IMG/VR virus record: IMGVR_UViG_3300026116_000048 | Span: 1 to 53,126 of that record | DNA length: 53,126 nucleotides | Origin: a virus | Direction: 5' to 3' (one strand) | Shown: positions 1-53,126 of the stretch, piece after piece | How positions within the stretch are numbered: the stretch's first letter is position 1 | Layout of the letters: every line of letters starts with the position of its first letter | The notes under the pieces: generated by a model | Seen by the model: the letters and a program-made list of their open reading frames with translations, nothing else | What the model was told of the DNA's origin: nothing | The model's database searches: none | Translations under genes and position numbers: made by a program

Positions 1-279
1 GATTGCTCCGATTGCTCCGATTGCTCCGATTGCTCCGATTGCTCCGATTGCTCCGATTGCTCCGATTGCTCCGATTGCTCCGATTGCTCCGATTGCTCCC
101 GTTGCTCCGATTGCTCGGGTTGCTCCGATTGCTCGGGTTGCTCCGGTTGCTCCGATTGCTCGGGTTGCTTCGATTGCTCCGATTGCTCCCGTTGCTCCGA
201 TTGCTCGGGTTGCTCCGATTGCTTCGATTGCTCGGGTTGCTCCGATTGCTTCGATTGCTCGGGTTGCTCCGATTGCTAC
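1..279 (+). repeat. 9-base tandem array (GATTGCTCC), left part
   Basis: There are 31 in-frame units of 9 bases. The first 11 are identical. The rest vary at codon 1 (GAT, GGT, CGT) and codon 3 (TCC, TCG, TTC, TAC), while the central TGC Cys codon never changes. The array continues from 52990 to the end of the window. Confidence 0.95.
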
Positions 280-606
280 AACAAGAAAGCTATCCTCACA
301 ATCCCAGTAATTGAACGCATTCATGCCAAGGTTTTGGAAGCTGTTTCCCGAGAGAATGCGTTTGATATGTCAAACTGGCATTCGTGCGAAACTACACATT
401 GTCGTGGCGGTTGGGTGATTCATTTGGCGGGTAAAGCTGGTAGCGATCTGGAGTCTATCACTTCGTCCGAGTTTGCGGCCATGGCCATTTACAATGCGTC
501 ATCGCCGATAAAAGTATCCCCTGTGCGCTTTTATGAAAGCGACGCAGCCGCAATGGCTGACATTAAGCGTTGTGCGGAGGAAGAATCACAACTTGCATCC
601 AAATGA
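1..606 (+). CDS. DCS tripeptide-repeat protein, C-terminal part
   Basis: The frame is open from base 1 and is the 3' part of a gene whose 5' end is at 52864, so the contig was cut inside it. Residues 1-93 are 31 tandem Asp/Gly/Arg-Cys-Ser/Phe/Tyr triplets, giving a Cys at every third position. A 108-residue non-repeat domain follows, with Cys residues in SCETTHC, then RGGWVIH and a C-terminal acidic helix with FYESDAAAMADIKRC. That C-terminal domain resembles one I know from many phage and environmental bacterial hypothetical proteins; I know no function for it. A TTG at 334 could serve as an internal start, but the open upstream frame argues for one long protein. It is followed by an ATGA overlap with the next gene. 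A metal-binding, Fe-S or disulfide scaffold is possible but only inference. Confidence 0.75.
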   Translation, partial: DCSDCSDCSDCSDCSDCSDCSDCSDCSDCSDCSRCSDCSGCSDCSGCSGCSDCSGCFDCSDCSRCSDCSGCSDCFDCSGCSDCFDCSGCSDCYNKKAILTIPVIERIHAKVLEAVSRENAFDMSNWHSCETTHCRGGWVIHLAGKAGSDLESITSSEFAAMAIYNASSPIKVSPVRFYESDAAAMADIKRCAEEESQLASK

Positions 607-1034: not shown

Positions 1035-1091
1035 ATGAACAGTATCGACGTAGCAACAGAAGCGGTGCCACAGACTACACAAAACCTATGA
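1035..1091 (+). CDS. Possible 18-codon leader ORF coupled to recT
   Basis: ATG 1035 opens an 18-codon frame whose TGA (1089-1091) overlaps the RecT ATG at 1088 as ATGA. The peptide MNSIDVATEAVPQTTQNL resembles the polar, Thr/Pro-rich N terminus often seen on RecT/Bet proteins. It could be a coupling leader or an ancestral N terminus separated by a frameshift. Chance occurrence cannot be excluded. Confidence 0.3.
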   Translation: MNSIDVATEAVPQTTQNL

Positions 1092-2122
1092 GCAATATCG
1101 AAAAAGTAGATAGATCAGAAAAGCCGATGGAATTCGTTCCATTTGGCAGCGAGCAAAAAATAAAACTCTCAATTGCAATCGTAAAAAACGTTTGCGCCGT
1201 AAAAACTAAGAGCGGTCGGACGTGCTCTGACAGCGACGCAATGAAGTTCATGATGCTCTGCCAGGGCAAGGGCCTGAACCCATTCGAAGGAGATGCCTAT
1301 TTGGTCGGCTATGACTCAAATCAGAACGGCACCATTATTCCAACCTTCAGCCAAATAACCGCACATCAAGCGTTGCTCAAGCGGGCTGAGGTGCACGCGG
1401 AATATAAAGGCATGGACAGCGGCATTGTAGTTCGTGGCGAGAACGGAGAGCAGCAAGAACGCAAGTCCTGTTTTATTCTGGAAGGCGAAGAACTTCTCGG
1501 AGGGTGGGCAACTGTGCATCGAGTGACTAAGATGCCAGTGTATTCGAAGTTGTCTGTAGTTCAACGCAAACCAAAATACGACACGCAGTTTTGGCAGGGC
1601 GCAAAGGCAGCGGAACAAATTCAGAAATGCGCAGAAGCCGATGCGTTGCGCATGGCATTTCCATCAAAGATCGGTGGGTTATATCTCCGAGACGAAATGG
1701 ACTTCCCAACAAATGTGGAAGTCACTGCATCCGACCTGCCGCAAAATAGATTGGTAGATGTTGCCGTCGTTGAAGATTTGGCCAGCGGCGATTCTGAGGC
1801 AACGCGGAATACTCAGGATCAGAAACAAGCCGCCGATACGGTATCCAGCCGCATGGAATCGAGATCGAATGAGCAAGCGTCAAGTAAGACGCCCGCTGGC
1901 CATTCTCCAGCAAACAGTGCGCGAGCTGACCTGGCACAATTCGTTGTCACTGAGGGTTATACATTTGGCCATTTTCAAAGGTGGGCACTGGAAACGAACA
2001 ATATTCCCGGCGCGGACTCGATCACGTCATTTGACGAAATCGCCGAAGCAGACGCTAAGCGGCTGATGCGATCAAAAGATGGTCTTAAAAAGGGATTGGC
2101 TAAAGCGAAAGGCGATCAATGA
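1088..2122 (+). CDS. recT: RecT/Bet family single-strand annealing protein
   Basis: A phage recombinase that anneals complementary single-stranded DNA during recombination and replication. About residues 15-230 match the RecT/Bet pattern: SDSDAMKFMMLCQGKGLNPFEGDAYLVGY, then FSQITAHQALLKRA, then GGWATVHR and a late EIQKCAEADALRMAFP-type helix. The C-terminal ~115 residues form a charged, low-complexity tail followed by a small helical region (GYTFGHFQRWA), possibly a partner-binding segment. The start at 1088 is chosen because the homologous region begins soon after and it couples to the short ORF at 1035; the open frame also extends upstream to 1004. The gene at 2119 overlaps by ATGA and is the usual RecT companion. 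There is no exonuclease of the lambda Exo type nearby. Confidence 0.9.
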   Translation: MSNIEKVDRSEKPMEFVPFGSEQKIKLSIAIVKNVCAVKTKSGRTCSDSDAMKFMMLCQGKGLNPFEGDAYLVGYDSNQNGTIIPTFSQITAHQALLKRAEVHAEYKGMDSGIVVRGENGEQQERKSCFILEGEELLGGWATVHRVTKMPVYSKLSVVQRKPKYDTQFWQGAKAAEQIQKCAEADALRMAFPSKIGGLYLRDEMDFPTNVEVTASDLPQNRLVDVAVVEDLASGDSEATRNTQDQKQAADTVSSRMESRSNEQASSKTPAGHSPANSARADLAQFVVTEGYTFGHFQRWALETNNIPGADSITSFDEIAEADAKRLMRSKDGLKKGLAKAKGDQ

Positions 2123-2838
2123 GTGAGCAAGCCTTGGTTGTTCGCAATGATGCGGTTCGCCGATTCAGTTTCACGCCAGCCGCTTTCGAGTTGAAAGAAA
2201 ATGCGCTCGTTAAGGGGGCCCTGGTTGGGAAGGTATCCAACGCTGATGAACAGAAGGACGCTGTCGCGGCACAAATCGAAGTTGCCAAAGTGCTTAAGCT
2301 GGCAGAGTCCGCACGCAAAACAGCCAAAGAGCCAATATTAGATTTTGGACGGATGATTGATGACGAGGCGAAGAAATTCGTTAAGGAGTTAAAGGAAGAG
2401 GAAATGCGCCTTGGCCGAATAGTTGCCGATTACGAACAACTTGAACAAGCCAGGATTCGTGCAGCGCAACAGGCCGAGAATCAACGACTGCTTGAAATCG
2501 AGCGCCAACGCGCTGCTGAAATGGCAAAGGCAAATAGCCATGATGACTTGGATAAGATCGCTGAGAAATTCGATCAGAAAGTCAAAGAGGACGCCCCGCT
2601 CCCGCAGACTATTAAACCAACCAGAGCCGAGGGCCAAAACATCCGCGAGGATTGGGATTTTGAAGTGACTGATATTTGGGCTTTGGCTCGTGCTCACCCT
2701 ATGTGCGTCTCAATCGAGCCCCGACGCACAGAAGTCAAAGCCCTTCTTATCGCCGGTATGAAAGTGACGGGTGTGCGTGCTTGGAAAGTAACAAAAGCTG
2801 GCGTCCGCGTCAAAACTCCTAACGCCATTGAGGTGTAA
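2119..2838 (+). CDS. RecT-associated coiled-coil protein (DUF1351-like)
   Basis: A 239-residue protein coupled to recT by an ATGA overlap. It has a long central coiled coil (about residues 35-155, with EEEMRLGRIVADYEQLEQARIRAAQQ-type sequence), then a C-terminal alpha/beta region (NIREDWDFEVTDIWALARAHP...VTGVRAWKV) typical of the DUF1351-like proteins found next to RecT in many phages. The C-terminal motif IREDWDFEVTD is characteristic. These partners are thought to help recombination, but the biochemical role is not established. I infer a role in the annealing complex from position. No enzyme motif is visible. Confidence 0.65.
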   Translation: MSEQALVVRNDAVRRFSFTPAAFELKENALVKGALVGKVSNADEQKDAVAAQIEVAKVLKLAESARKTAKEPILDFGRMIDDEAKKFVKELKEEEMRLGRIVADYEQLEQARIRAAQQAENQRLLEIERQRAAEMAKANSHDDLDKIAEKFDQKVKEDAPLPQTIKPTRAEGQNIREDWDFEVTDIWALARAHPMCVSIEPRRTEVKALLIAGMKVTGVRAWKVTKAGVRVKTPNAIEV

Positions 2839-30638: not shown

Positions 30639-31207
30639 CTGACCCTCCCATCGTGAAAGTAAGATACGCCCTTGAGCAATTGCACAGGCCAGTTATTTTG
30701 TCGAACGACACTCAGCCATTGATCATCAACAGGGTTGCTGTGCTTCAGTTTTTTGCAAATGACAGTTGGCATTATCAACCCCGGAGGACCACTATTCGGC
30801 CAATTGGAATAATGGCTTTGACCAAGCACATAGAATTCAGAATTACAGGCCGGTCCATTTTCGCCAGACTCAATCTTTTCGAGCTGTGTTTGCCAATCGC
30901 CTTCAACCCATGCGTCATCGTCAAACAGCCAGCACCATCGACCTTTTGCCAACGTCATCAGGTCATCAATGAACTGGCCCATTTCGATATAGCCTCGTCC
31001 GCGTGGACCGATGAATGCCGTTACGCCAAACTCTTTTTCGAGTTCCGGCAATTCTGAAATGCGTTGTTGGTTATCGTCATCAACGCGCAGCAGGATTTGA
31101 ACGGCATCGAAATGCGTGGCGCTCTTTTTGATGGATTCAAGTGCTCGGCGCAGACCTTCAATCGGATTGATGGTAGGCATCAGAACACTAATGAGTGGTT
31201 GAGTCAT
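30635..31207 (-). CDS. Glycosyltransferase family 2-like
   Basis: A 190-residue protein with a GT2 fold: SVLMPTINPIEGLRRALESIKK at the N terminus, QILLRVDDDN with the catalytic DxD, then GRWCWLFDDDAWVEGDW and the acceptor-side PVDDQWLSV. It is shorter than typical GT2 enzymes (about 250), so the C-terminal lid may be missing or supplied by partners. Coupled to the next gene by ATGA. Acts on nucleotide-sugar donors; acceptor unknown. Confidence 0.75.
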   Translation of the reverse strand: MTQPLISVLMPTINPIEGLRRALESIKKSATHFDAVQILLRVDDDNQQRISELPELEKEFGVTAFIGPRGRGYIEMGQFIDDLMTLAKGRWCWLFDDDAWVEGDWQTQLEKIESGENGPACNSEFYVLGQSHYSNWPNSGPPGLIMPTVICKKLKHSNPVDDQWLSVVRQNNWPVQLLKGVSYFHDGRVR

Positions 31208-31944
31208 GTCGCTAAAGAATCTTCGGCAAGGTGCAGGTCCGAATTTTGAGGGCAGTCGGCCATAACGGGATGATTTCCATTAACAAAATTGGAGCAGTAT
31301 TGATTTGATTTTCCGCCCGGCATGCCTTTGATCACCGGCGAATAAACTTTTGCATTCCCCAACGTTGCCGCCCACCAAGAGAAAGTGCTATTCGCCCGGA
31401 AATGCACTTTGGCGGTCATCATTCTATAAAATGCCGGAATGGAAACGGCAGTTGTGCCGAGTCCGCAGGCATTGACGTTGCCATCAAATTCAGTCAGGCG
31501 CGTAGGCGAATCCGGAAATATCTCCCACGAAATATCCGCACTTCCGTAGCCATGTTTAAGGCAGGCATCCCAATAACATTCGTTGCCGAGACAAACCAAG
31601 CCAGCATCGATCATGTCTTGTCCGCGACGAATATCGAGCAGGACTTCCGGCGCTTTGACGGGCTTTAACTTCTCCAAAATCTCCGGCTTGAAACTGAACC
31701 ATTCACGGACCTGTTTGCGCGTATAAATCAGATCGTTTTGATGCTGATACATGCGTTCCGGCCATTCGATGTCTGGTTTGTGCTCATTTGGCCGAACTGC
31801 TTTTGGAATATTAAATATCTTCTCCCCGAACCATGGCCACGTGGAGAGCGTGTAACCGTTTTGATCGCACCACGCCAAGCCGTAGGCCACTTGGAAAAGG
31901 ATATTTCCCGTGCGACCAAGCAAAGGCAGGTAAACAGTTTTCAT
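31204..31944 (-). CDS. GT11-like fucosyltransferase
   Basis: A 246-residue enzyme resembling alpha-1,2-fucosyltransferases. The N-terminal LPLLGRTGNILFQVAYGLAW matches the GT11 GGLGNQLFQYA-type motif, the middle LLDIRRGQDM corresponds to the basic HxRRGDY donor-binding motif, and KVHFRANSTFSWWAATLG corresponds to the S(N)STFSWWxA signature. The usual His of HxRRGDY is replaced and Tyr is Met, so donor or activity may differ. Coupled on both sides. Likely adds a fucose-like sugar in the same pathway. Confidence 0.8.
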   Translation of the reverse strand: MKTVYLPLLGRTGNILFQVAYGLAWCDQNGYTLSTWPWFGEKIFNIPKAVRPNEHKPDIEWPERMYQHQNDLIYTRKQVREWFSFKPEILEKLKPVKAPEVLLDIRRGQDMIDAGLVCLGNECYWDACLKHGYGSADISWEIFPDSPTRLTEFDGNVNACGLGTTAVSIPAFYRMMTAKVHFRANSTFSWWAATLGNAKVYSPVIKGMPGGKSNQYCSNFVNGNHPVMADCPQNSDLHLAEDSLAT

Positions 31945-32540
31945 CAGCAGCGTTGGAACATCATGCCGGTTTCAATCGGATAGAGTTCTCGGAAGCCCAT
32001 GGAACGCAGATGGGCAACCGCACGAAGCACGCCGCCACCCGCCCACTCCAAATCGTCGCAATAAACGAATCCACCGCTCAAGACTCTGGGAGCCCACTTC
32101 TTGACATCATCCACGGCTTCATTGCCATGATTGGCGTCAATGATCAGAAATCCAATGCCGTCTGGCGGTTCGACATCGCGCGTCCTTTTTCGAATGACGG
32201 TAGTGCAATTTTGAACACCCAAAACTTGGACATTTTTCAGGACGGATTGATAAGCAGCTTCGTGGTTTGCGCTTCCCCAATGTTTTCTGTCGGCCTCATT
32301 TATCTGTCCTTCCACTGAAGCTTCGGGCGACCAAGCGTCAATCGCATAAACCATGCCCTTGCCGATTTCTTTGTGGGCGAGAGCAAGACTCAAGGCTCCC
32401 CTTCCCATCCACACGCCCAACTCCACGGAAATCATCGGGCGATAGCTCAAAATCAATCCGGCGAACGTTTGAGCCTTGGGCACAGAGGTCCAACCGCCGA
32501 GCGATGGAACAAGGGTTGAAATTTGTTCAAAGAGTTTCAT
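31944..32540 (-). CDS. SAM-dependent methyltransferase (class I)
   Basis: A 198-residue class I methyltransferase. Motif I is VELGVWMGRGALSLALA (about residues 38-54), the acidic end of strand 2 is VYAIDAWSPE, and GIGFLIIDANHGNEAVDDVKKWAPRVLSGGFVYCDDLEW is the post-strand-4 region of the CmcI/Methyltransf_24 type, with IID and DDLEW acidic residues. The substrate is presumably a sugar or nucleotide sugar, as the gene is embedded between glycosyltransferases. One-base stop-start overlap with the GT11 gene. Confidence 0.75.
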   Translation of the reverse strand: MKLFEQISTLVPSLGGWTSVPKAQTFAGLILSYRPMISVELGVWMGRGALSLALAHKEIGKGMVYAIDAWSPEASVEGQINEADRKHWGSANHEAAYQSVLKNVQVLGVQNCTTVIRKRTRDVEPPDGIGFLIIDANHGNEAVDDVKKWAPRVLSGGFVYCDDLEWAGGGVLRAVAHLRSMGFRELYPIETGMMFQRC

Positions 32541-34897
32541 GTGAAATTCAAATCCTTCTCAGTTATCGTGAACAATCCGCAATGGCTGTCATTTATTCCG
32601 GCGGACAAAATCCATTTCCCCGACGAGGCTTCAACGGCACCAAGGGGAAATATGACTTTTACTTTGTGCTGAAGACATCCACTGCGTTCTACCGCCGAAA
32701 GTGTATCCAGCTCACTTCCCCAAATGATTGGCCGCTTGGAGATCGCGATTGGTTTGAACGGCGGTTGACCATCCATGAGCATTGCGCCAACGAAATAGCG
32801 GCGGCGATTTGGCGGAGGTTCGGAATCGACCGCAGAATGGAAGAAGCGCAAGAGTGAGCCTTTGTATAATATCGGCGTAGCCCCGCCTCGGATTGCGCCC
32901 CACGGCCAGCGAGGACCATCATATTCAGCGATTATCTTCGCAATTGGTCCTTGAAGTTCGATAACAACCGTCTTCGGCGAGGTTGAATAGATGCAGACGA
33001 TCTTTCCGGCATGACTCCATAGCAGCCAATTCTTTTCGCATGCGGACATATCGTTCTGTCCGTAATTCGGTTGAGAAACATTCTCCAGTTTCCACGTGGA
33101 ACTTTCGATCAGGCGCCCGTATTTGACGACCGCTCTGGGCGGCATAGCGGGAAAGGTCGAATCGACGTAAGATAGCCAAAGTTCGTTGTTGTGGGCGAAC
33201 AGGCGAGGGTCTTCTTCGGAGCCTCCTGATTGCGGCAGCAGGATTGATTTCTTGTCGTAAACGTTTCCTTTTTCATCGACTTGAGCGATGGCCAAAGCGG
33301 TCGAAAGATTACGGTCGTCGTGATAGCGATATGCGAGTAAAAGCTTGCCTCCAAACCGAACGATGCTCCCGTTGTATCCATAGGAGTCCAAGGCGTGGCG
33401 ATTGACGATAGCGGCGGGGAGTTGTTCGACGCATGGCTTGGCCAGAGCGATTTGACCATGTTTGGCCTCAAAGTCATTATGGCATTGCTCATTCCATAGG
33501 TAGCGCCTGCCCCCTTGGATTTTTGCGGTTGATGGCGAGCGATAAACTCCGAACTGGATTTCTCTGCCGCCGGAGCTCTTTACGATATGAAGCAATGTTC
33601 GGCTCCAAAATTGGTCCGATCCTAAAAAGAATTCGGGCAGATCAGATTGATGTTTGGTCCACCATTTTTTTGTGAAGGCGAACAGGTCAACTTGGGGATT
33701 CCAGTTATCTCCGGTTTCATCCCGGTAGGTTCGATAGCTGTAGGCAGGCAATTCACCAGTCATTAATTCCATCGAAAGCGTTTCGGAAAAGCAGGTATCA
33801 GAACGGGTAAGAATGATAATGTCATCCGGGCGAGCGCGATAACAGGCGAGTCGGATAACGTCTTTCACATACGGATGCCGTTGATCGTCTTTAACAATTG
33901 AGTGGGCGTTGCTATCTCGGCCTAACGCGCCAACTTCGATTGGGCAGGCAATCCAAGGCCATTCTGCGTATTCGGGAAGCCAACTACTCTTTGCGGTTTG
34001 GTGTCGCGCCTTGGATTCATCGTGGAGTTCGTATTTACTCCAGACATGGATGAGGCGAGGTCCGGTACCGGTTTGAACCTTGAAATACGATCCGATTGAT
34101 CCAATACCTTCAATTGCATCCAACATTTCCACAGCGCGCAACGGGAAGTCTGAATAGCGAATGTGACTGATGTGATTGTATCGCCATGCTGAACCAAACC
34201 AGAGTTTTGGAGAGTCGTTTACCAAGGCGCAGACCGGAATTGGAATATTTGAACAGGCTTGGGCCAAATGAAGAAAAGCCGAATCAACGCTAATCAGGCA
34301 TCGTGCGGATTCCAGCAGTCCAATAAAGTCGTAAAACCGCTCGGCTTTAATTTGATTCAGGTCTATCAACCGGAGCGATCTTCCGCGCAGAAGTTCAAAC
34401 AGTAATTCGCGATACGGGAATGGGGACGATTTGCCGTTGGCGGCAACAAGAATGCCTGGCTGAGAATATCTGAATTTTAATTCTGTCTCTCTGGCAGTAT
34501 TCCGTCTATCGAAAATAGGTGGCGGCTGTCTGGACCAGATCTCCTGATTCTTTGTCAGCCAATATGGTTCCTTTTGGAAGCTATCGGTTTGGGCCTTATC
34601 GAATCCAGCAGGTCCATAGGTGATGTCTTTGACAACTTGGGTGTCGCCGATAACCTGTAAAGAGACTATCTCATCGCCGGTTGCTTTAGCCTCAGAATAT
34701 GCGCGGCGAAGTTCATTATCTTTGCCGTCGAATGGAATGCACTGCACGTAGGAAGTTCCTTCGAACAGCGAGGCATATTCCCGGCAACACATGACGCGGC
34801 ATGGCTGTCCGGTCGTCTGTGATTCGGCAAAGAAGATCGGAAGACAATTTATTAAGTCCCCAAGTCTGCCTAAGAGGATGAATGTCTTACTTGCCAT
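32537..34897 (-). CDS. GT9/GH130-like fusion glycan enzyme
   Basis: A 786-residue multidomain protein (ATG 34897; a TTG at 34912 would extend it). Domain 1 (1 to about 265) resembles GT9 heptosyltransferases: LLGRLGDLINCLP, SVDSAFLHLAQA. Domain 2 (about 270-450) is unknown but globular (HPYVKDVIRLACYRARPDDIIILTRSDTCF, WWTKHQSDLPEFFLGSDQFWSRTL). Domain 3 (about 480-786) looks like a GH130/GH43-type five-bladed propeller: SEEDPRLFAHNNELWLSYVDS, EKNWLLW, RGGATPILYKGSLLRFFHS, RRYFVGAMLMDGQPPFKPIAIS, VIFPLGAVEASSGKWILSAGINDSH. A transferase joined to a phosphorylase-like propeller could build and trim a glycan. It overlaps the XRE start by 11 bases. Confidence 0.75.
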   Translation of the reverse strand: MASKTFILLGRLGDLINCLPIFFAESQTTGQPCRVMCCREYASLFEGTSYVQCIPFDGKDNELRRAYSEAKATGDEIVSLQVIGDTQVVKDITYGPAGFDKAQTDSFQKEPYWLTKNQEIWSRQPPPIFDRRNTARETELKFRYSQPGILVAANGKSSPFPYRELLFELLRGRSLRLIDLNQIKAERFYDFIGLLESARCLISVDSAFLHLAQACSNIPIPVCALVNDSPKLWFGSAWRYNHISHIRYSDFPLRAVEMLDAIEGIGSIGSYFKVQTGTGPRLIHVWSKYELHDESKARHQTAKSSWLPEYAEWPWIACPIEVGALGRDSNAHSIVKDDQRHPYVKDVIRLACYRARPDDIIILTRSDTCFSETLSMELMTGELPAYSYRTYRDETGDNWNPQVDLFAFTKKWWTKHQSDLPEFFLGSDQFWSRTLLHIVKSSGGREIQFGVYRSPSTAKIQGGRRYLWNEQCHNDFEAKHGQIALAKPCVEQLPAAIVNRHALDSYGYNGSIVRFGGKLLLAYRYHDDRNLSTALAIAQVDEKGNVYDKKSILLPQSGGSEEDPRLFAHNNELWLSYVDSTFPAMPPRAVVKYGRLIESSTWKLENVSQPNYGQNDMSACEKNWLLWSHAGKIVCIYSTSPKTVVIELQGPIAKIIAEYDGPRWPWGAIRGGATPILYKGSLLRFFHSAVDSEPPPNRRRYFVGAMLMDGQPPFKPIAISKRPIIWGSELDTLSAVERSGCLQHKVKVIFPLGAVEASSGKWILSAGINDSHCGLFTITEKDLNFT

Positions 34898-35081
34898 TTT
34901 CCGCCGCTTCAATTCTTCGAATTAATTCCACCATGGCCACACTGTCGGGTGTGCGCTCACCGCGTTCGTAAGATCCGTATCTTCTAAGAGATAGTCCGAG
35001 GAGATTGGCGATCTCTTTTTGCCTCATGTTTTTCGATAAGCGCAGAGCCAACAATCTGTTCTTTAATAGAACGTCTGACAT
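34887..35081 (-). CDS. XRE-family regulator, controls late divergent promoters
   Basis: A 64-residue XRE/Cro-type repressor or activator. The helix-turn-helix is MRQKEIANLLGLSLRRYGSYERGERTPD (residues 19-46), with the usual QxxxAxxLGxxxxxxSxxExGxR pattern. It has no ligand or dimerisation domain, like Cro or restriction-modification controller proteins. Its gene sits exactly between the glycan cassette and the capsid operon, and palindromes lie 10-50 bases upstream of its ATG. The same palindrome lies in the 18 kb late promoter, so it probably coordinates late structural operons and itself. Confidence 0.75.
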   Translation of the reverse strand: MSDVLLKNRLLALRLSKNMRQKEIANLLGLSLRRYGSYERGERTPDSVAMVELIRRIEAAENGK

Positions 35082-39181: not shown

Positions 39182-39802
39182 ATGAAAATCAAAATAACCG
39201 CAATCGCTCTGTTGATCGGCTTTCTGGCCTTCGTTGTCTATGCGACGACACAGGATCAGGCGATTACGGCTGCTTCAGGTTATTTAAGCCTTTCAGAACA
39301 CGCGCTGAATTCGGTTGAGGCGTACTATTTAGCGGGTGCGGTCTCATCCACGATAGCAATTTCAAACGCGATTCCATACAGCAGTTTGGACGAGCACTCG
39401 CTTTCAGCTATTAGGGCTTACTATGCGGCAAATTCATCAAGTTCGAGTACGATCACAAATGTATATGAATTCTGCCTCTCCGACGAAACGACAGCGATAA
39501 CGACCGGAACGGCGAAAGTTAGTTGGCGTGCGCCTCATGCGATGACGTTGAAGGATTGCCGCGCCTCGCTCTCGACCGCATCGAGCTCAGGAATTCCGAC
39601 GGTCAATATTAAGGAGTCCGGAACGACTATCTTTTCAACTAAACTGACAATTGACGCGAATGAGACGACGAGCACGACCGCAGCGACGCCTTACGCTTTC
39701 TCCGACACGTCGATTGCGGACGATGCTTTAATCACTTTTGACATTGATGTCGCTGGAACCGGGGCGGCTGGTCTTAAAGTAAAGCTGTACTACACGCGAT
39801 GA
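39182..39802 (+). CDS. Secreted-type tail protein with SLS-YY motif pair
   Basis: A 206-residue protein with N-terminal hydrophobic signal (ITAIALLIGFLAFVVYATT), then two motif copies (residues 33-53 GYLSLSEHALNSVEAYYLA and 65-84 PYSSLDEHSLSAIRAYYAA). The C-terminal 110 residues (FCLSDETTAITTGTAKVSWRAPHAMTLKDCRASLST...ESGTTIFSTKLTIDANETTSTTAATPYAFSDTSIADDALITFDIDVAGTGAAGLKVKLYYTR) belong to a domain I recognise as common in phage tail proteins. The stop overlaps the next gene's ATG. Likely a short tail or anchor partner for the spike. Confidence 0.7.
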   Translation: MKIKITAIALLIGFLAFVVYATTQDQAITAASGYLSLSEHALNSVEAYYLAGAVSSTIAISNAIPYSSLDEHSLSAIRAYYAANSSSSSTITNVYEFCLSDETTAITTGTAKVSWRAPHAMTLKDCRASLSTASSSGIPTVNIKESGTTIFSTKLTIDANETTSTTAATPYAFSDTSIADDALITFDIDVAGTGAAGLKVKLYYTR

Positions 39803-41910
39803 GAGCTGAAATCTTAATCCTTCTATTTGCGTGTGCTCAGGTATTCGCACAGCCGAATTTGATTAACCCATATCGGTTTGCGGGGTTTCAGTCGGAAACG
39901 CTGACTTACCAATCCAACATCCTTGCCAATTCCGGTACGATTTCAGCGAGCGATTTGGCGGCGGTGGATACCTTTGTCGTCAATGCCAAGGTGCATGGTT
40001 ACTGGTCTTCGTTGATTGATTGCTCGCCATTGGCCGGTGATCAGACCAATGCGGCGGTTATCAAACTTGTTCAAGGATCAGGTTCAAACGTGCGACTGAC
40101 GATCAACGGACTGACATCTGCGAATTACACCAAAGCAGATGGCTGGAACAATCCAGCCAATGCCTGGCTGGATACGACTTTCTCGGCGGTGCCGGTTACA
40201 AATCAGGGAATGGCTTTCTGGATTAGCAAACCGATGACGAATTTGGCGAGTCAAGAAAGGCCGATGGGTCATTCTTCCGCGCCGTCAGGAAACGAGTTTG
40301 ATTTCTATTTCCTGGATTACTCAAACGACCCGATTATGGCGCACGCCGTGAGCCTGGATCAGGTTGCTTCACTTCCGAACAATCAATATCGCTATACGCC
40401 AGGGGTGGGTTTATTTGGCTACACGCGGACGGCAAACAACCGGCTTCACCTATACCAAAATGGCGAGCCGATAGTTGTAAATTCATCAGCAGCAGCATCT
40501 ACGGCGAACAATCAGCCGGTGACGATCCTGGGCTCGTATCACAATTTTTCGGGGGGTGTGCCTTCGACATTTAGTTTCATCAACAAGCCGATTGGCTTTT
40601 ACGCGATTGACAGCGGGATCGGGACGAACCTGATCGCATCGTATTACGCGGACGTGCGGGATTTGATGAAAGCGATTGGCAGAACGGCGCAGTTTAATTT
40701 TCCGCAGCAGACATTTTTGATTGTGGGCCAGAGCCTTGCGGTTGCGGGCGGCAGCGGGTCGCTATCCAGCACGGCGATCATTACGACGAATGGAAACTCG
40801 AAAGCGCTTTATACTGGCGGACTATTCAACCCGGCTGGCAATGGCACTCTCTATACTCCGAACAAGACTCGTTCGACGATGTTTGAGTATGGATCGGAAA
40901 CCGGCTGGAGAGCATTCGCAGATCATCTTTATTACCTGTGCACGAACAACAGCTACGGCGCGAGCACCAATGGAACGTTATTGGTCAATTGGGCTGAGGG
41001 AGGTCAAAACTACGCTTACCTAAAGAAAACGTCCAGCTCGACCGAGACGATTAATGGGGTGGTGAACAATATCTATGGATTTTCGACGAACGATTTGACG
41101 ATGCAGCAAGCCTTGCAGCAATCGATCTATGGCCAATCGCTGAACGTGAAAGGTATTTTGGTTTGCCATGGGGAATCGGATGCGGCGACGACGGGTTATT
41201 CGAACAATATCGCGGAATGGTCTCGGGATTATCAATTGGACATTCCGGCGATTACTGGACAGGCGACGCCACCGCCATTGTTTTGGATGCAATCAGCGGA
41301 TTTGAATTGGCCGACGGGCGGCGGATCGTATCCGTACGCAGTCAAGGCAATGTACGATTTGCACAAGAATTCAGCCGGGAGCAATATTCTGGTTTCTTCA
41401 CGGTACCATTTGATTCACCAGACTGACGCGGTTCACCTCTATAACATTTCGTACCAGAGGCAGGGAGAGTACTTCGCAGAAGCAGCATATAGCAAATTTT
41501 TCAGTCGAGGTTATTGGGAACCGTTGAGACCGGTATCGGTAACGCGATCCACTTCGACCATTACGGTGACAGTTACAAACATTACCGGAACCGGAATGAT
41601 AAAGGATACGACCCTTGTAACGGCGGCTGATCATGATGGCTTCACATACACAAACAATGACGTGAGCGTTCCTACGATTACAGGCGTCACGTTAACCGGC
41701 GCTACAACTAACCAGATTCAGATCACGCTTTCAGGAACTCCGGGGACTGCTGGCATTCTTCGATATGCAATGAATTGCACGAACGTGAACAGCACTGGGC
41801 CGACGCAAGGAGCGCGCGGCAATATCCGAGACCGTTATTCGGGGCTTGGATTCATAACGACGAGTAACATGTATAACTGGATGCCAGCTTGGGAGGAATC
41901 AGTCCCGTGA
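39799..41910 (+). CDS. Tail-spike-like SGNH carbohydrate esterase
   Basis: A 703-residue protein. N-terminal residues MRAEILILLFACAQVFAQ look like a signal peptide. Residues about 40-290 are a beta-rich carbohydrate-binding-like region. From 305 there is an SGNH/sialate O-acetylesterase-like domain: block I VGQSLA with Ser312, block III CHGESDA (457-461), and DAVH (Asp543, His546) as block V. Esterases of this group remove acetyl groups from surface sugars; phages use them as depolymerising receptor enzymes. The C-terminal 110 residues form a beta domain (TITVTVTNITGTGM...). It ends by a GTGA overlap with the holin. Receptor unknown. Confidence 0.75.
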   Translation: MRAEILILLFACAQVFAQPNLINPYRFAGFQSETLTYQSNILANSGTISASDLAAVDTFVVNAKVHGYWSSLIDCSPLAGDQTNAAVIKLVQGSGSNVRLTINGLTSANYTKADGWNNPANAWLDTTFSAVPVTNQGMAFWISKPMTNLASQERPMGHSSAPSGNEFDFYFLDYSNDPIMAHAVSLDQVASLPNNQYRYTPGVGLFGYTRTANNRLHLYQNGEPIVVNSSAAASTANNQPVTILGSYHNFSGGVPSTFSFINKPIGFYAIDSGIGTNLIASYYADVRDLMKAIGRTAQFNFPQQTFLIVGQSLAVAGGSGSLSSTAIITTNGNSKALYTGGLFNPAGNGTLYTPNKTRSTMFEYGSETGWRAFADHLYYLCTNNSYGASTNGTLLVNWAEGGQNYAYLKKTSSSTETINGVVNNIYGFSTNDLTMQQALQQSIYGQSLNVKGILVCHGESDAATTGYSNNIAEWSRDYQLDIPAITGQATPPPLFWMQSADLNWPTGGGSYPYAVKAMYDLHKNSAGSNILVSSRYHLIHQTDAVHLYNISYQRQGEYFAEAAYSKFFSRGYWEPLRPVSVTRSTSTITVTVTNITGTGMIKDTTLVTAADHDGFTYTNNDVSVPTITGVTLTGATTNQIQITLSGTPGTAGILRYAMNCTNVNSTGPTQGARGNIRDRYSGLGFITTSNMYNWMPAWEESVP

Positions 41911-47184: not shown

Positions 47185-47364
47185 CTATGTTGTTAACTTC
47201 CCGTCTCGCCATATACCCCAAGCCTTGTGCATCAGATCCATTCTTTCGCGCTCGCTTTTGTCGCTGATCTGCGGCGATATTATCGAATCCCAAAACCGTT
47301 GGAACCGCTCCCGTTGCTCGCTCATTTGTTCCTGATGCTCTTTAAGTTCTGTCTCAGTTGTCAT
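47185..47364 (-). CDS. Small charged helical protein
   Basis: A 59-residue protein from ATG 47364, overlapping the primase-helicase stop by 11 bases. MTTETELKEHQEQMSEQRERFQRFWDSIISPQISDKSERERMDLMHKAWGIWRDGKLTT is strongly helical and charged. The clean overlap with the upstream stop and coding character support a real gene. Because of location it may be a helicase partner or loader fragment; nothing proves that. Confidence 0.5.
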   Translation of the reverse strand: MTTETELKEHQEQMSEQRERFQRFWDSIISPQISDKSERERMDLMHKAWGIWRDGKLTT

Positions 47365-49042
47365 TTTCCGTCCTCACTTTGCTGCGCTCAGTTATCGCCA
47401 GCGTTTTCACATTGTAATCGCACTCGAATTCCATCCCGGCACCGCCCTTCGTGGATTTAAGCACACGAATTTTTGCGGTGTCGCTGCTAGGCCGCCAGAG
47501 CCCAAGTACTAACCCGCTGGAATTCTCTAAACTGCCACTGTCTTTGCCGTCTTGCAGGGTGACGTCCGGGTGAGAATCGTCTCCCTTTCTCGACACCTGC
47601 GACGACACTATGACGATTGTTTGAAGTGCCTTGGCCATATTTTTCAGGTCTTCGGCTACTTGGCTGATTCTCTCGTACCTGCTTTTGCCTTGCCCTTTCA
47701 TCAGTTGAATGTAATCGAGCAGAACCAATTTCGGGCGCTGGCCGATCTTCAATTCGCTTCGTGAAATAAGCATCTCAAGGTCTTTAACTGTAAGTGCCGG
47801 CTGAGTGCAGATATAAAGATGCGGCCAATCGCTATCCACCGCATTTTCTCCAAGTGATTCACCGTTTTTGTATGTCGTCTCAACTTCCTTGCAGGCCAGA
47901 TTCCTGGAAAGTGCCATGCTGCGTTCGTACATCGTTTCGGCTGGCAGTTCTAATTCGAAAAACAGTGTCGGCAACGGGCGCGCGCTCTTGGCGATGTTTG
48001 TAAGTGATGCGGTTTTTCCAATCCCTGTCCCGGCCAGAATCAAAGCTAAGTCGCCAGGGACAAGCCCGCGGAGTTTATACATTCCGGGGATCCATTTTCC
48101 GAGGTTGTAGGCCGTGTGCTTGAGGTTCTGGACAAATCGTTCGTAGCCTGGTTCAAGTTCCGACATTTTATATATCGGCATCCCGACGCCTTTGACATGC
48201 GGCATTGCTGCGTCCCACAGTGCTTCCAAAGCGTGTTTGCAGTCCTCTTTATTGTCAAAGGATGCGGCATAGTCGGACACGTCCTTGAATGATTCTGGCA
48301 CCTTTACGAGCCGGAGGGTCTTTACCTTTCCAGCAATTGAATCGAATACGGTTTTTACGTGATTTTTGCCTACCTCGTCGTTGTCTCCGCAGATCGTTAC
48401 GTGTTTTTTGTGCAACGACTCAGTGTAAGCGTCCAGCCACTTACCGGCCCCTCCGACATTGCATGTCGCGTTGAAGCCCATCGCTATCAGCGTTTCGGCA
48501 TCCTTTTCTCCCTCAACTATCCAAACTGATTTTTCATTTGCCCACTCAGGTAACCGATATAGCACGCGCTCGACGCCTTCCATGTCCCAGACCCACCCGT
48601 TTGCAACGGGCCGTCGCTGCCTGAACGTCTTCACATATCCGCATTCCTTGTCTTTGACCGGCGCGTGTTGTCTGACGACCTGATAAACGATGTTCCCAAG
48701 AGTGTCCTCGTAATTGTAGGTAGCAACCGTTTCCCATTTCAGCGGCTCTTCTCGCGTCGCAATTCGGTGGACATGGCCGTTTCCGTTTACGCCGGCGGAC
48801 TTCAACACTTGGATCGGTGTGATATTGTCGAATCTGGCTATCAGATCGATGACCGATCCGCCGCCGCAGCCTGCGTGACAATGCCACAATCCAGTGGTTA
48901 CGTTTACAGACATTGAAGCTGTCCGATCTTCGTGAAACGGACATTTCACCGAGCGTTGAGCACCACCGCCGATCACCCTTACCCCACGATGCTCGAGTAC
49001 GGTCATGATCGGGTTTTTAGCTATGAACTCTTCGCGGGTCAC
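47354..49042 (-). CDS. Primase-helicase (CHC2 + TOPRIM + DnaB-like)
   Basis: A 562-residue replication enzyme. Zinc finger CPFHEDRT...WHCHAGCG (C34, H37, C55, C59) is the CHC2-type primase finger. TOPRIM domain: SVWIVEGEKDAETLIAMG (172-189) and VTICGDND (215-222). C-terminal RecA-fold: Walker A LAGTGIGKTAS (336-346) and Walker B LVLLDYIQLM (439-448), then KALQTIVIVSSQ and GSLENSSG loops. It makes RNA primers and unwinds DNA, like T7 gp4. Start GTG 49042 with GGAGG eight bases upstream, coupled to the 43-residue gene by GTGA. Confidence 0.9.
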   Translation of the reverse strand: MTREEFIAKNPIMTVLEHRGVRVIGGGAQRSVKCPFHEDRTASMSVNVTTGLWHCHAGCGGGSVIDLIARFDNITPIQVLKSAGVNGNGHVHRIATREEPLKWETVATYNYEDTLGNIVYQVVRQHAPVKDKECGYVKTFRQRRPVANGWVWDMEGVERVLYRLPEWANEKSVWIVEGEKDAETLIAMGFNATCNVGGAGKWLDAYTESLHKKHVTICGDNDEVGKNHVKTVFDSIAGKVKTLRLVKVPESFKDVSDYAASFDNKEDCKHALEALWDAAMPHVKGVGMPIYKMSELEPGYERFVQNLKHTAYNLGKWIPGMYKLRGLVPGDLALILAGTGIGKTASLTNIAKSARPLPTLFFELELPAETMYERSMALSRNLACKEVETTYKNGESLGENAVDSDWPHLYICTQPALTVKDLEMLISRSELKIGQRPKLVLLDYIQLMKGQGKSRYERISQVAEDLKNMAKALQTIVIVSSQVSRKGDDSHPDVTLQDGKDSGSLENSSGLVLGLWRPSSDTAKIRVLKSTKGGAGMEFECDYNVKTLAITERSKVRTENDN

Positions 49043-49170
49043 CTGATAGCCTCCAACCAAATGTTGAGACGCGATTGCCAATAAGCAAAACGCCAGAAAA
49101 TACGCGAAGGTACTGCACACGCTAGAAGTGCCAACCGAGCCAAAAACCTTTTGATCTTCATCAGTTTCAT
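49039..49170 (-). CDS. 43-residue basic membrane-like protein
   Basis: ATG 49170 overlaps the previous stop (ATGA) and the TGA overlaps the primase-helicase GTG (GTGA). MKLMKIKRFLARLALLACAVPSRIFWRFAYWQSRLNIWLEAIR has a basic start, one hydrophobic segment and a Trp/Arg-rich tail. The gene contains the GGAGG ribosome-binding site of the helicase gene inside it. Coupling on both ends supports it. Function unknown. Confidence 0.5.
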   Translation of the reverse strand: MKLMKIKRFLARLALLACAVPSRIFWRFAYWQSRLNIWLEAIR

Positions 49171-49799
49171 GGCGTGAACAGTTGGCGCTGCGGGCGGCTG
49201 TGGCCGTTAGCGAACTTTTTAGCGTTCTCCCTCCACGTCACCATTGCCTGCCTCCAATCCACCATCGGAAGTCCGGTTTTATACTTCCATCCACGGGAAC
49301 TGTGATAAGCAAAGAACCCTTCAATCTCAGACGGTGGTAATCCGATCTTTGAAGCGTGTAGTTCCATTTCTGAAAACGTTGGTATACTAAATCTCTTTAG
49401 AGATTTAGGTTCCCGGTTCCCGGTTCCCGGTTCTGCTACCCTTTTTGGGGTACCTTTCGGGGGTCTTTCGGGGGTCTTTCGGGGGTCTTCGACGTGAGTA
49501 AGGTGTCCGTTTTGGGGTATCTTTGAATGGCACGCTGCATTGGGGAGTTGATATACCCTCACTTGCTGGGTTGCACCGGTACGCTTTCCGGTATCAACTA
49601 TCAGTCCTTGTTCGGTCAATGATTTAAGCGCCCGGCGAACGGCTTTGTCCTCAGCTTGGGTGATACCACAGACCGTCTCTACAGTGGGATACGCTTTACC
49701 GGTTTCGCTGGCGAAGTTACAAAGTGCCAAAAGCACCAGTTTTTGTGTGGACGATTGAACTTCCGTTTCAAACGCCCAAGATAATGCTTTTAGGCTCAT
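49167..49799 (-). CDS. Winged-helix protein of the replication operon
   Basis: A 210-residue protein from ATG 49799. Residues 1-90 form a winged helix-turn-helix (HTH_36-like): SWAFETEVQSSTQKLVLLALCNFASETGKAYPTVETVCGITQAEDKAVRRALKSLTEQGLIV. A Pro/Arg/Lys/Gly-rich linker (EDPRKTPERPPKGTPKR) encoded by repeats follows, then a C-terminal block with FFAYHSSRGWKYKTGLPMVDWRQAMVTWRENAKKF, which is common in phage replication proteins. Likely a helicase loader or initiator for the primase-helicase just downstream. This is a second winged-helix protein besides that at 9963. Confidence 0.7.
   Translation of the reverse strand: MSLKALSWAFETEVQSSTQKLVLLALCNFASETGKAYPTVETVCGITQAEDKAVRRALKSLTEQGLIVDTGKRTGATQQVRVYQLPNAACHSKIPQNGHLTHVEDPRKTPERPPKGTPKRVAEPGTGNREPKSLKRFSIPTFSEMELHASKIGLPPSEIEGFFAYHSSRGWKYKTGLPMVDWRQAMVTWRENAKKFANGHSRPQRQLFTP
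49389..49406. repeat. Strong hairpin AAATCTCT-TT-AGAGATTT
   Basis: Perfect 8-base arms around a two-base centre inside the coding sequence of the winged-helix protein, directly beside the repeat block at 49408-49488. Could be a transcript structure or a protein site; no known role. Confidence 0.6.
49408..49488 (-). repeat. Short tandem repeats (7-mer and 11-mer) in the linker
   Basis: GGTTCCC occurs three times at 49408-49428, and the 11-base unit TTCGGGGGTCT three times at 49456-49488. Neither unit is a multiple of three, but three copies are (21 and 33 bases), so the frame is kept only with three-fold copy changes. They encode the Pro/Arg/Gly/Glu linker of the winged-helix protein. Confidence 0.85.
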
Positions 49800-50404: not shown

Positions 50405-51628
50405 CTATTTTTTTTCGTGTACTGGCACGTGTACATCCAGAGAGAGAATATTGCCAGGCATCTTCAACATCGCCCATGCCGGTTCACCTTTCGGCATCCA
50501 AGTCAAACCTTCTCCTCCTCGCCAATTGTCTGGAATGCCACCGTAGCTGGCGACTACTGTCGAGGCTCCGCTACTGTCGCCAAGCTCGTCTGCGATCTGG
50601 CCGTCTCCAATGCCTTGCGACCGGCGCACGGTCACGTAGTACGCACGCAAGCCGTGACTAGTGCGATGTTTGCCGCACACGGAGCGCGAGGCCCGCGCCA
50701 GTGACTTTGTGAGAGATGACGCATTCAACGGAATTTCCTTTCCGCTGTGTGAACTGGGCAACCACCAAGGCCCAGTCTTGTTTCTCCACAAACGCCAGCG
50801 TTTTAATGCTTCAAGGCATTCTTTAAGCGAATCGTGAATGTGAGACCAAGGGCGCACTCCATTCTTCGAACGATTCAACCACAGCCAATCGTTTTCAACA
50901 AAACCAGCCTCGGTGCGATCCTTAGCATCCCATCGCAGTCGGACAATCTCGGAGGTTCTACAGCCGGTCATGGCTTGCAACAAAACCTGCCATCCGAGGA
51001 CTTCGCTCTGTCGCCGCTTAAAAAAATAGGTCGCAAGCGCGTGAAGCTCCTCGGCATCAGAGGGCATGAATTGATAACAGTGCTTAATCGTTTTGCCCGG
51101 TCGAAAGCGTTGGCGGACTGCAATCGGATTAGCGTCCATCTTGCCAAGAGATACCGCCCAATTAAAAACGTTAGCCAAAGTAACCAGTTCAAGATCGGTC
51201 GTGCGTGCGCCGGTGCCCCTTTTCACGCGCGCCTTACGCCAACTAAAATAGAGACCGCAGTCTTTTGACCTTATTGTGTCGGCCTGTCGTTTGCCAAAAA
51301 ATGCGATCAGTTGCTTGATTCGGCTTTGTTCATCATACAACTGCTTACCTTTTCGCGAACTGTGCTGGCGATCAGGGCAACCTTTCTTTTCGTATTCAAT
51401 ACATAAGTCCGCCACGGTTTTGGCTGGAGGTGCGTAAGGATCACGGGCCAACCCGTGCACTGCGCGTGCTTGGTCTGTGCGCCGCGCCGAAAGCATATCT
51501 TTGGCATCTTTTAGGGTTTGCGCGGGGATTTTGCGCCAAGTTGTTTTGCCGTTGATTATGGGGCGCTCTAAAAAGCTTCCATTTCGAGAATCAACATAGA
51601 TGCCAGGGGCAATACTTTTGCGGCTCAT
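50405..51628 (-). CDS. int: Tyrosine integrase
   Basis: A 407-residue tyrosine recombinase. Catalytic residues: R224 in TGCRTSEIVRLRW, HGLR (H325, R328) and the nucleophile Y362 in VVASYGGIPDNW. The second conserved H/K position is less clear (ELGDSSGAS). The N-terminal 180 residues contain arm-binding and SAM-like core-binding parts (AKTVADLCIEYEKK, KDCGLYFSWRKARVKRGTG). It recombines attP with the host tRNA-Arg gene for integration and excision. The gene ends next to the attP fragment. ATG 51628. Confidence 0.9.
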   Translation of the reverse strand: MSRKSIAPGIYVDSRNGSFLERPIINGKTTWRKIPAQTLKDAKDMLSARRTDQARAVHGLARDPYAPPAKTVADLCIEYEKKGCPDRQHSSRKGKQLYDEQSRIKQLIAFFGKRQADTIRSKDCGLYFSWRKARVKRGTGARTTDLELVTLANVFNWAVSLGKMDANPIAVRQRFRPGKTIKHCYQFMPSDAEELHALATYFFKRRQSEVLGWQVLLQAMTGCRTSEIVRLRWDAKDRTEAGFVENDWLWLNRSKNGVRPWSHIHDSLKECLEALKRWRLWRNKTGPWWLPSSHSGKEIPLNASSLTKSLARASRSVCGKHRTSHGLRAYYVTVRRSQGIGDGQIADELGDSSGASTVVASYGGIPDNWRGGEGLTWMPKGEPAWAMLKMPGNILSLDVHVPVHEKK

Positions 51629-52863: not shown

Positions 52864-53126
52864 ATGGCAACTCAAATATTCGAAACCAAGGAAGACTTCG
52901 ATAATCGAGCGGACAAATCCGTAAACGGCGTCTCAAAAAAATTTGCGATCCAAAATAGCGACTGGGAAAAACAAAACGCAACTAACTACGGTTGCTTCGA
53001 TTGCTCCGGTTGCTCCGATTGCTCGGGTTGCTCCGATTGCTCCGATTGCTCCGATTGCTCCGATTGCTCCGATTGCTCCGATTGCTCCGATTGCTCCGAT
53101 TGCTCCGATTGCTCCGATTGCTCCGA
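52864..53126 (+). CDS. DCS tripeptide-repeat protein, N-terminal part
   Basis: The 5' part of the gene continued at 1-606. ATG 52864 encodes 42 residues (MATQIFETKEDFDNRADKSVNGVSKKFAIQN...EKQNATNY), a charged N-terminal domain, then GCF, DCS, GCS, DCS, GCS and ten or more DCS units to the end of the window. The final two bases (GA) do not complete a codon, so the circular join must overlap the start by 2 or 2+9n bases to keep the frame. Minimum protein length is about 289 residues with 46 triplets. The N-terminal domain matches a pattern I know from Cys-triplet proteins of phages. Confidence 0.75.
   Translation, partial: MATQIFETKEDFDNRADKSVNGVSKKFAIQNSDWEKQNATNYGCFDCSGCSDCSGCSDCSDCSDCSDCSDCSDCSDCSDCSDCSDCS
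52990..53126 (+). repeat. 9-base tandem array (GATTGCTCC), right part
   Basis: Five varied units (GGTTGCTTC, GATTGCTCC, GGTTGCTCC, GATTGCTCG, GGTTGCTCC) and then ten perfect GATTGCTCC units plus two bases. With the left end this gives at least 21 identical units in a row, flanked by varied ones on both sides. Confidence 0.95.

Follow-up and report, generated by a model that had tools for sequence, protein, structure and literature searches.

A modular phage gene with cysteine at every third residue, and a possible thin solenoid between conserved end domains

The Cys-triplet gene and its neighbourhood

The window, i.e. the whole stretch of 53,126 bp analysed here, is the virus record IMGVR_UViG_3300026116_000048 and looks like the genome of a temperate tailed phage. 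Its main features, including a gene of unusual composition that runs across the two contig ends, are collected in Table 1.

Table 1. Features located in the window
Feature	Positions	Strand	Remarks
N-cap, type A	52864..52989	+	42 residues, MATQIFETKEDFDNRADKSVNGVSKKFAIQNSDWEKQNATNY; ATG at 52864
XCX array, first part	52990..53126	+	15 Cys; leaves the contig end
XCX array, second part	1..279	+	31 Cys in phase; from the opposite contig end
C domain	283..606	+	107 residues and stop (604-606); predicted helical; WHSCETTHCRGGW motif; phrog_31265, E=3e-27
RecT single-strand annealing protein	1088..2122	+	PF03837, E=1e-26 on 1004-2119; downstream of the Cys-triplet gene, co-directional
Possible exonuclease	2119..2838	+	weak match, phrog_10477, E=9e-4
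DNA methyltransferases	between 4154 and 7932
Glycosyltransferase-like protein	31204-31944	-
GH130 mannooligosaccharide phosphorylase	32537-34912	-	marginal match
Tail fibre	39799-41907
Primase-helicase	47354-49120
Two short tandem repeats	49408-49489		GGTTCCC x3.7 and CTTTCGGGGGT x3.3; near the primase-helicase gene
Integrase	50405-51628

The initial annotation had proposed that both contig ends belong to a single gene, coding for a 42-residue N domain, about 46 XCX triplets and a C domain of 108 residues that includes a Cys pair. This layout was found as claimed. Both ends consist of the pure GATTGCTCC repeat, with a 9-bp unit, over 99 bp each (Tandem Repeats Finder scores of 242 and 414). 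A blunt join of the ends is 2 bases out of register; identical overlaps common to both ends have lengths of 11, 20 and so on up to 92 bp, in steps of 9, and each of them joins N-cap, triplets and C domain in one open frame, giving a protein of 258-285 aa. Moreover, relatives that lie intact on a single contig (e.g. L177, L166 and L139) have the same N-cap, array and C domain, also in one frame. Thus, the proposal of one translated gene is borne out, and the contrary outcomes that the initial annotation had considered, a stop or frameshift at the join or an array out of frame in related genomes, were found neither at these overlaps nor in the intact relatives. The figure of about 46 triplets is not supported, since between 1 and 10 of the array units counted (15 + 31 Cys) are common to both ends via the overlap if the contig is circular, and the assembler may have collapsed more. 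As the contig end also falls inside the array in 22 other XCX relatives with the C domain, the break in the window is regarded as an artefact of assembling the repeat; six contigs carry the C domain and the N-cap at opposite ends (L141/L246, L142/L277, L147/L262, L152/L249, L171/L280 and L181/L252). The array of the window is strongly acidic and contains no Thr.

Within 5 kb of the array genes (96 loci), genes for YqaJ (13 loci), RecT, ERF, DNA methylases, an SNF2-type helicase, YopX and DnaB are found. These neighbours, together with those of the window, place the Cys-triplet gene in an early or recombination region, and its product would thus probably be cytoplasmic.

Family, end domains and exchange of modules

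Neither Pfam nor NCBIfam has a match on the window gene, and no literature on Cys-triplet phage proteins was found in paper searches. Two PHROGs families, phrog_31265 and phrog_15341, match the C domain and the array region, the former aligning with the C domain at E=3.3e-27 over profile positions 149-250 of 264; both carry no assigned function. The C domain of the window was recovered at 342 viral loci in one profile scan, as well as at 24 loci in bacterial genomes (including Bacteroidota and Alpha-, Beta- and Gammaproteobacteria), which are probably prophages. The profile-HMM search envisaged in the initial annotation has therefore led to at least 340 viral loci with this domain, and the gene is not a one-off. 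The arrays span about 3 to 60 repeats across phages, and two cultured relatives are available: Flavobacterium phage FL-1, in which N-cap, array and C domain are all present, and Vibrio phage 1.238, with N-cap and array. The Cys-triplet protein is thus real and common in environmental phages, with no assigned function. In the FL-1 record (L013:7618-7962; KY421186.2 26567-26911), the annotated CDS uses the wrong array frame, as an IAP/VAP repeat; read in the other frame, the gene consists of the N-cap, 36 triplets and the C domain, the last being interrupted by an apparent frameshift.

Different N-caps are involved. In the type A cap, found by profile at 49 viral loci, N21, G22, C44 and C50 are invariant when the window protein is aligned with 10 phage relatives; its loci have no bearing on cap specificity, because the type A profile included array residues. 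The type B cap (WIxDANGNRCSVEYFGSxEAA) was sampled at 41 loci, all of which have XCX arrays and none another repeat type. Furthermore, a scan for TGY at every ninth base, cleared by ORF inspection of false matches, which were collagen-like and simple repeats read in another frame or strand, and whose counts are lower bounds, has revealed additional Cys-triplet proteins that bear different caps and are often encoded by paralogues in tandem. In L024, L025, L041, L053 and L090, each phage carries two to five of these paralogues in tandem, with differing arrays. A further C domain, ADLRGYTWLAIYENDEWRIRAGCRNFSITEAREHW, follows the XCX array in L360.

The C domain of the window has H14, M29, W32, C35, H39, C40, R41, G43 and W44 among its invariant residues, and, when predicted alone, it is modelled by AF2 as six helices with a pLDDT of 90. 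The best match of a PDB sequence search with this domain had E=0.19, and Foldseek gave no PDB fold match for the confident model (best E=8.8, at a threshold of E<1e-3); in BFVD, one match of 74 residues at 51% identity was obtained, which is probably a fragment of FL-1.

The same C domain is found behind other repeats. An HMM of the domain built from XCX proteins only matches the phage pentapeptide-repeat proteins L227, L229, L230, L232-L235 and L238, as well as a Bordetella bronchiseptica plasmid pentapeptide protein, at E=3e-28 to 9e-35, and the LRR-like protein L222 at E=3e-37; correspondingly, phrog_31265 joins in one profile a pentapeptide N half and the window-type C domain. A second C domain (IGSRN...CGCF), absent from the window protein, follows XCX arrays in L289-L307. 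An HMM search (E=1e-5 to 3e-15, Z=1e6) places it after a hexapeptide left-handed beta-helix in Bacteroides BF766P1, Ruminococcus phiRM10, Chryseobacterium MA9V-1, Bacillus Bp8p-C and Bobb, Paenibacillus Pd_22F and others, and after pentapeptides in Listeria phage LWP01. A third (HMQVGCQ), with 128 matching phage records, lies after the XCX array in L074 and after pentapeptides in Caulobacter BL94 and Acinetobacter Acba_16, the viral contigs L321 and L322 showing the same swap. Since three unrelated C domains follow both XCX arrays and known beta-helices, the XCX arrays take the place of a beta-helix rod; this sharing shows equivalence of position, not of structure. In L222 (1-427), the repeat before the window-type C domain is LRR-like (LSGTPITALPDGLTVGGGLYL), a fourth repeat type.

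Therefore, the modular layout of the gene, with a conserved N-cap, Cys-centred units of three residues and a conserved C domain (predicted to be helical) in one frame, is well established and widespread in phages. Two groups of phage proteins share it. The pentapeptide-repeat proteins (PF00805; with a WHTC...THCRAGW or HMQIGCQ C domain, phrog_31265) have the cap-repeat-C arrangement and the C domains of the XCX proteins, but their unit is A(D/N)LXX and their N-caps are different. The hexapeptide proteins (annotated as 'putative acyltransferase', phrog_7964/20532) have the same layout and share the IGSRN...CGCF domain with another XCX branch; their unit is [DN]AxVxG, again with other N-caps. 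The window protein itself was rejected as a pentapeptide-repeat protein, no Pfam family being found on it, while a control pentapeptide relative scores PF00805 at E=8e-24.

Conservation and variation within the array

The initial annotation took the invariance of the TGC codon in the window as a sign that the spacing of Cys is selected. The invariance proves little, because every wobble position of the unit, including that of the preceding codon, is near-uniform in this array. Selection on the spacing is supported, however, by the TGT-only and mixed arrays of other phages: in 160 non-redundant arrays (4029 units), Cys is coded by TGC in 3145 units and by TGT in 884, with 71 arrays all TGC, 19 all TGT and 70 mixed, and the Ser codon, depending on the phage, is TCC, TCG, TCT, TCA, AGT or AGC. 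Even strongly divergent arrays (L014, L020, L071, L084 and L025) still have Cys at every third residue.

On the coding strand of 165 arrays, 25 in-phase replacements were counted beside 4460 Cys, and Cys is present at about 99.4% of array positions. The replacing residues were Ser (9), Leu (6), Ala (3), Phe (2), Arg (2), Ile (1), Met (1) and Tyr (1). His, Asp and Glu never appear among these 25, and Gly and Trp, both one base change away from TGY, are equally absent; Leu, Ala, Ile and Met are each at least two base changes away. The residues flanking Cys are polar, mainly Ser after it and Asp, Gly, Arg, Asn, Ser or Tyr before it. Judged from the sequences, the replacements at Cys have the pattern of a buried core position. 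L135 has an array of only about 3 Cys, and in L152 several Cys are changed to Ser.

Array length shifts by whole units even between near-identical phages. In L166/L169, with 10-kb surroundings 99.7% identical, a three-unit indel and one Gly/Asp change were found; L167 and L186, 99.2% identical upstream, have 30 and 50 units, respectively; and between L185 and L192 there are four indels of one unit each and one substitution. Repeat number, a point raised in the initial annotation, does therefore vary between siblings. No synonymous unit substitution was found in the alignments of these three pairs. In addition, the L289/L290 siblings have identical C domains and array ends and equal total length, while about eight triplets in the middle of the array are replaced, as if by recombination with a paralogue.

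A similar tendency is seen in the 63 Asp/Gly/Arg-Cys-Ser arrays, which use 14 different codon backgrounds: at least 122 nonsynonymous events at the pre-Cys codon stand against 17 synonymous events at all three codons, these being minimum-event counts, blind to unit copying, and hence no formal dN/dS; synonymous variants are completely absent from 48 of the 63 arrays. The pentapeptide and hexapeptide relatives share the homogenised core codons, their surface codons varying at positions 1-2 with few or no synonymous variants; L315 has none in 46 units, and three or four such variants occur in L229 and L309, which are exceptions. Unequal recombination would homogenise the rod fast, purging neutral variants, and selection would keep a mixed charged surface (Asp/Gly/Arg); the two together are the likely explanation of the nonsynonymous-only variation. 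Targeted mutation may be a source of array variation. A diversity-generating retroelement is considered improbable, as the variants are limited to Asp/Gly/Arg and a few others, not random NNY, and no reverse transcriptase was noticed among the window genes examined. The idea of a DNA mimic as a general feature was discarded, the mean net charge being only -0.13 per triplet and Arg being common.

Structure and possible role of the array

The reading that we consider somewhat probable is that of a modular solenoid, in which the XCX triplets form a thin rod of variable length. Each triplet would be a short face of a very thin solenoid, with Cys pointing inward and the two flanking polar residues outward, in a geometry like that of beetle antifreeze protein, where a coil of 12 residues has four x-in-x triplets. 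The N-cap would start the coil, the array would be the rod and the C domain the part acting separately. TmAFP (PDB 1EZG; IPR016133) folds as a right-handed beta-helix whose coils have 12 residues each, in an out-in-out arrangement repeated four times; its in-facing residues are Cys, Ser, Cys and Ala, and the Cys pair is disulfide-bonded, the disulfides being needed for folding (PMC8038014). In 1ezg, C, S or A recurs at every third residue over most of the sequence, and the XCX family profile matches 1ezg at E=2.3e-4 through the array alone, the similarity being partly compositional. When the in-facing rule of TmAFP is set against the arrays, Ser and Ala appear among the commonest replacements of Cys, but so does Leu. 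Both proteins would have an inward residue at every third position, polar outward residues and tandem repeats. In contrast, the XCX core is all Cys; the unit is of 3 residues, without a TCT or TxT face, and not the 12-residue repeat TCTxSxNCxxAx with its TxT face; and the XCX N-cap and C domain have no counterpart in TmAFP, so that the likeness is one of geometry at most. Membership of the TmAFP-type insect antifreeze proteins was rejected on the 3-residue unit, the lack of Thr in the window array and the lack of lag-4 triplet periodicity; with no TxT face and no Thr, the window array would not be ice-binding.

The specificity of the type B cap is counted in favour of the solenoid, since a cap must fit its solenoid. 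From the position of the array and its pattern of substitution, we infer that it acts like a beta-helix rod, the structure itself being a prediction from sequence. Structure prediction, as proposed in the initial annotation, succeeded for part of the protein: with a 32-row alignment, AF2 modelled the N-cap and most of the C domain confidently (pLDDT of about 83 in the N-cap region of the relative L177), but the array reached a pLDDT of only about 30. AF2 reportedly tends to give repeats a confident beta-solenoid (PMC11795689), so that its low score here speaks against a plain solenoid, and the array may, on the evidence of the model, be disordered or in need of a ligand. The high retention of Cys, moreover, may exceed what core packing by itself would explain. 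No turn was detected in the residue order across arrays, which has no peak at 3 or 4 triplets, residues after Cys clustering only locally; array length modulo 2, 3, 4 and 5 is likewise flat, with no preferred value.

The low pLDDT would be accounted for if the array were an unstructured low-complexity linker, a flexible or condensing tether between folded ends in which Cys serves as a sticker or redox handle, and low complexity and freely variable length agree with this. Nevertheless, we hold it to be unlikely: a strict phase of three residues with near-invariant Cys is unexpected in a flexible linker, Cys is replaced by small or hydrophobic residues, and the array swaps with two known beta-helix repeats.

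A failure of AF2 to fold the array without ligand is also what a metal or Fe-S scaffold would produce, in which Zn, Fe, Cu(I) or iron-sulphur clusters are bound along the Cys ladder, for example with one Cys4 site per 12-residue turn, as a metal-filled wire or sink. Metal sites typically show CxxC spacing, a TmAFP-like coil with four inward Cys would be geometrically suited, and Cys is kept at its near-constant frequency despite the codon differences between phages. However, the residues that do replace Cys include hydrophobic ones and never His, Asp or Glu, arrays persist with about 3 Cys or with several Cys turned into Ser, and the shared C domains also follow Cys-free solenoids; this scaffold is accordingly given a low probability.

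The in-facing spacing shared with TmAFP, which needs disulfides to fold (PMC8038014), would fit a disulfide-bonded fibre of the beetle antifreeze kind, perhaps virion-associated or released, and gp68 of Vibrio phage 1.238 is annotated as 'insect antifreeze protein'. Yet the N-caps, inspected by eye, look soluble and lack a signal peptide-like N terminus, and a product of a gene set among recombination and replication genes, if it is cytoplasmic and early, would sit in a reducing compartment, which speaks against disulfides; we regard such a fibre as very improbable. Finally, the array as a DNA-level element (a recombination hotspot or binding site) with incidental translation, to which uniform wobble bases within each array and the RecT, YqaJ and ERF neighbours might point, is refuted as the main explanation by the 14 codon backgrounds for the same units, including TGT-only and AGT/AGC serine arrays, together with the conservation of frame, N-cap and C domain in intact genes. 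Among the three structures offered by the initial annotation, then, the extended solenoid is the best supported, whereas no support was found for the metal or Fe-S scaffold and the disulfide fibre.

As to the role of a solenoid protein of this type, the C domain and the variable rod of a cytoplasmic early protein would contact a macromolecule of the host or of a rival phage, evolving quickly. Rapid evolution and a mixed charged surface are as expected for an early protein in such contact, and a rapidly evolving early host-interaction protein is put forward here only tentatively. Similarly speculative is a wider proposal: that there is one class of phage early proteins in which interchangeable solenoids (Cys triplet, pentapeptide and hexapeptide) are combined with a few shared C domains, and in which diversification goes on continually at the surface of the solenoid, sparing the core and involving almost no synonymous change, as an arms-race 'variable rod' system; the Cys-triplet rod would be a new minimal solenoid, whose all-thiol core may have a chemical function.

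If the Cys-triplet array does form a solenoid, it would be about the thinnest in nature and, to our knowledge, would have its only precedent for one in-facing residue per three in the insect antifreeze proteins. The exchange of repeat folds before shared C domains unites hundreds of phage genes that are unannotated or misannotated (as 'insect antifreeze', 'acyltransferase' or 'pentapeptide repeat') in one testable class, and the heavy surface variation, with near-absent synonymous variation, points to a selective force, perhaps conflict with the host.
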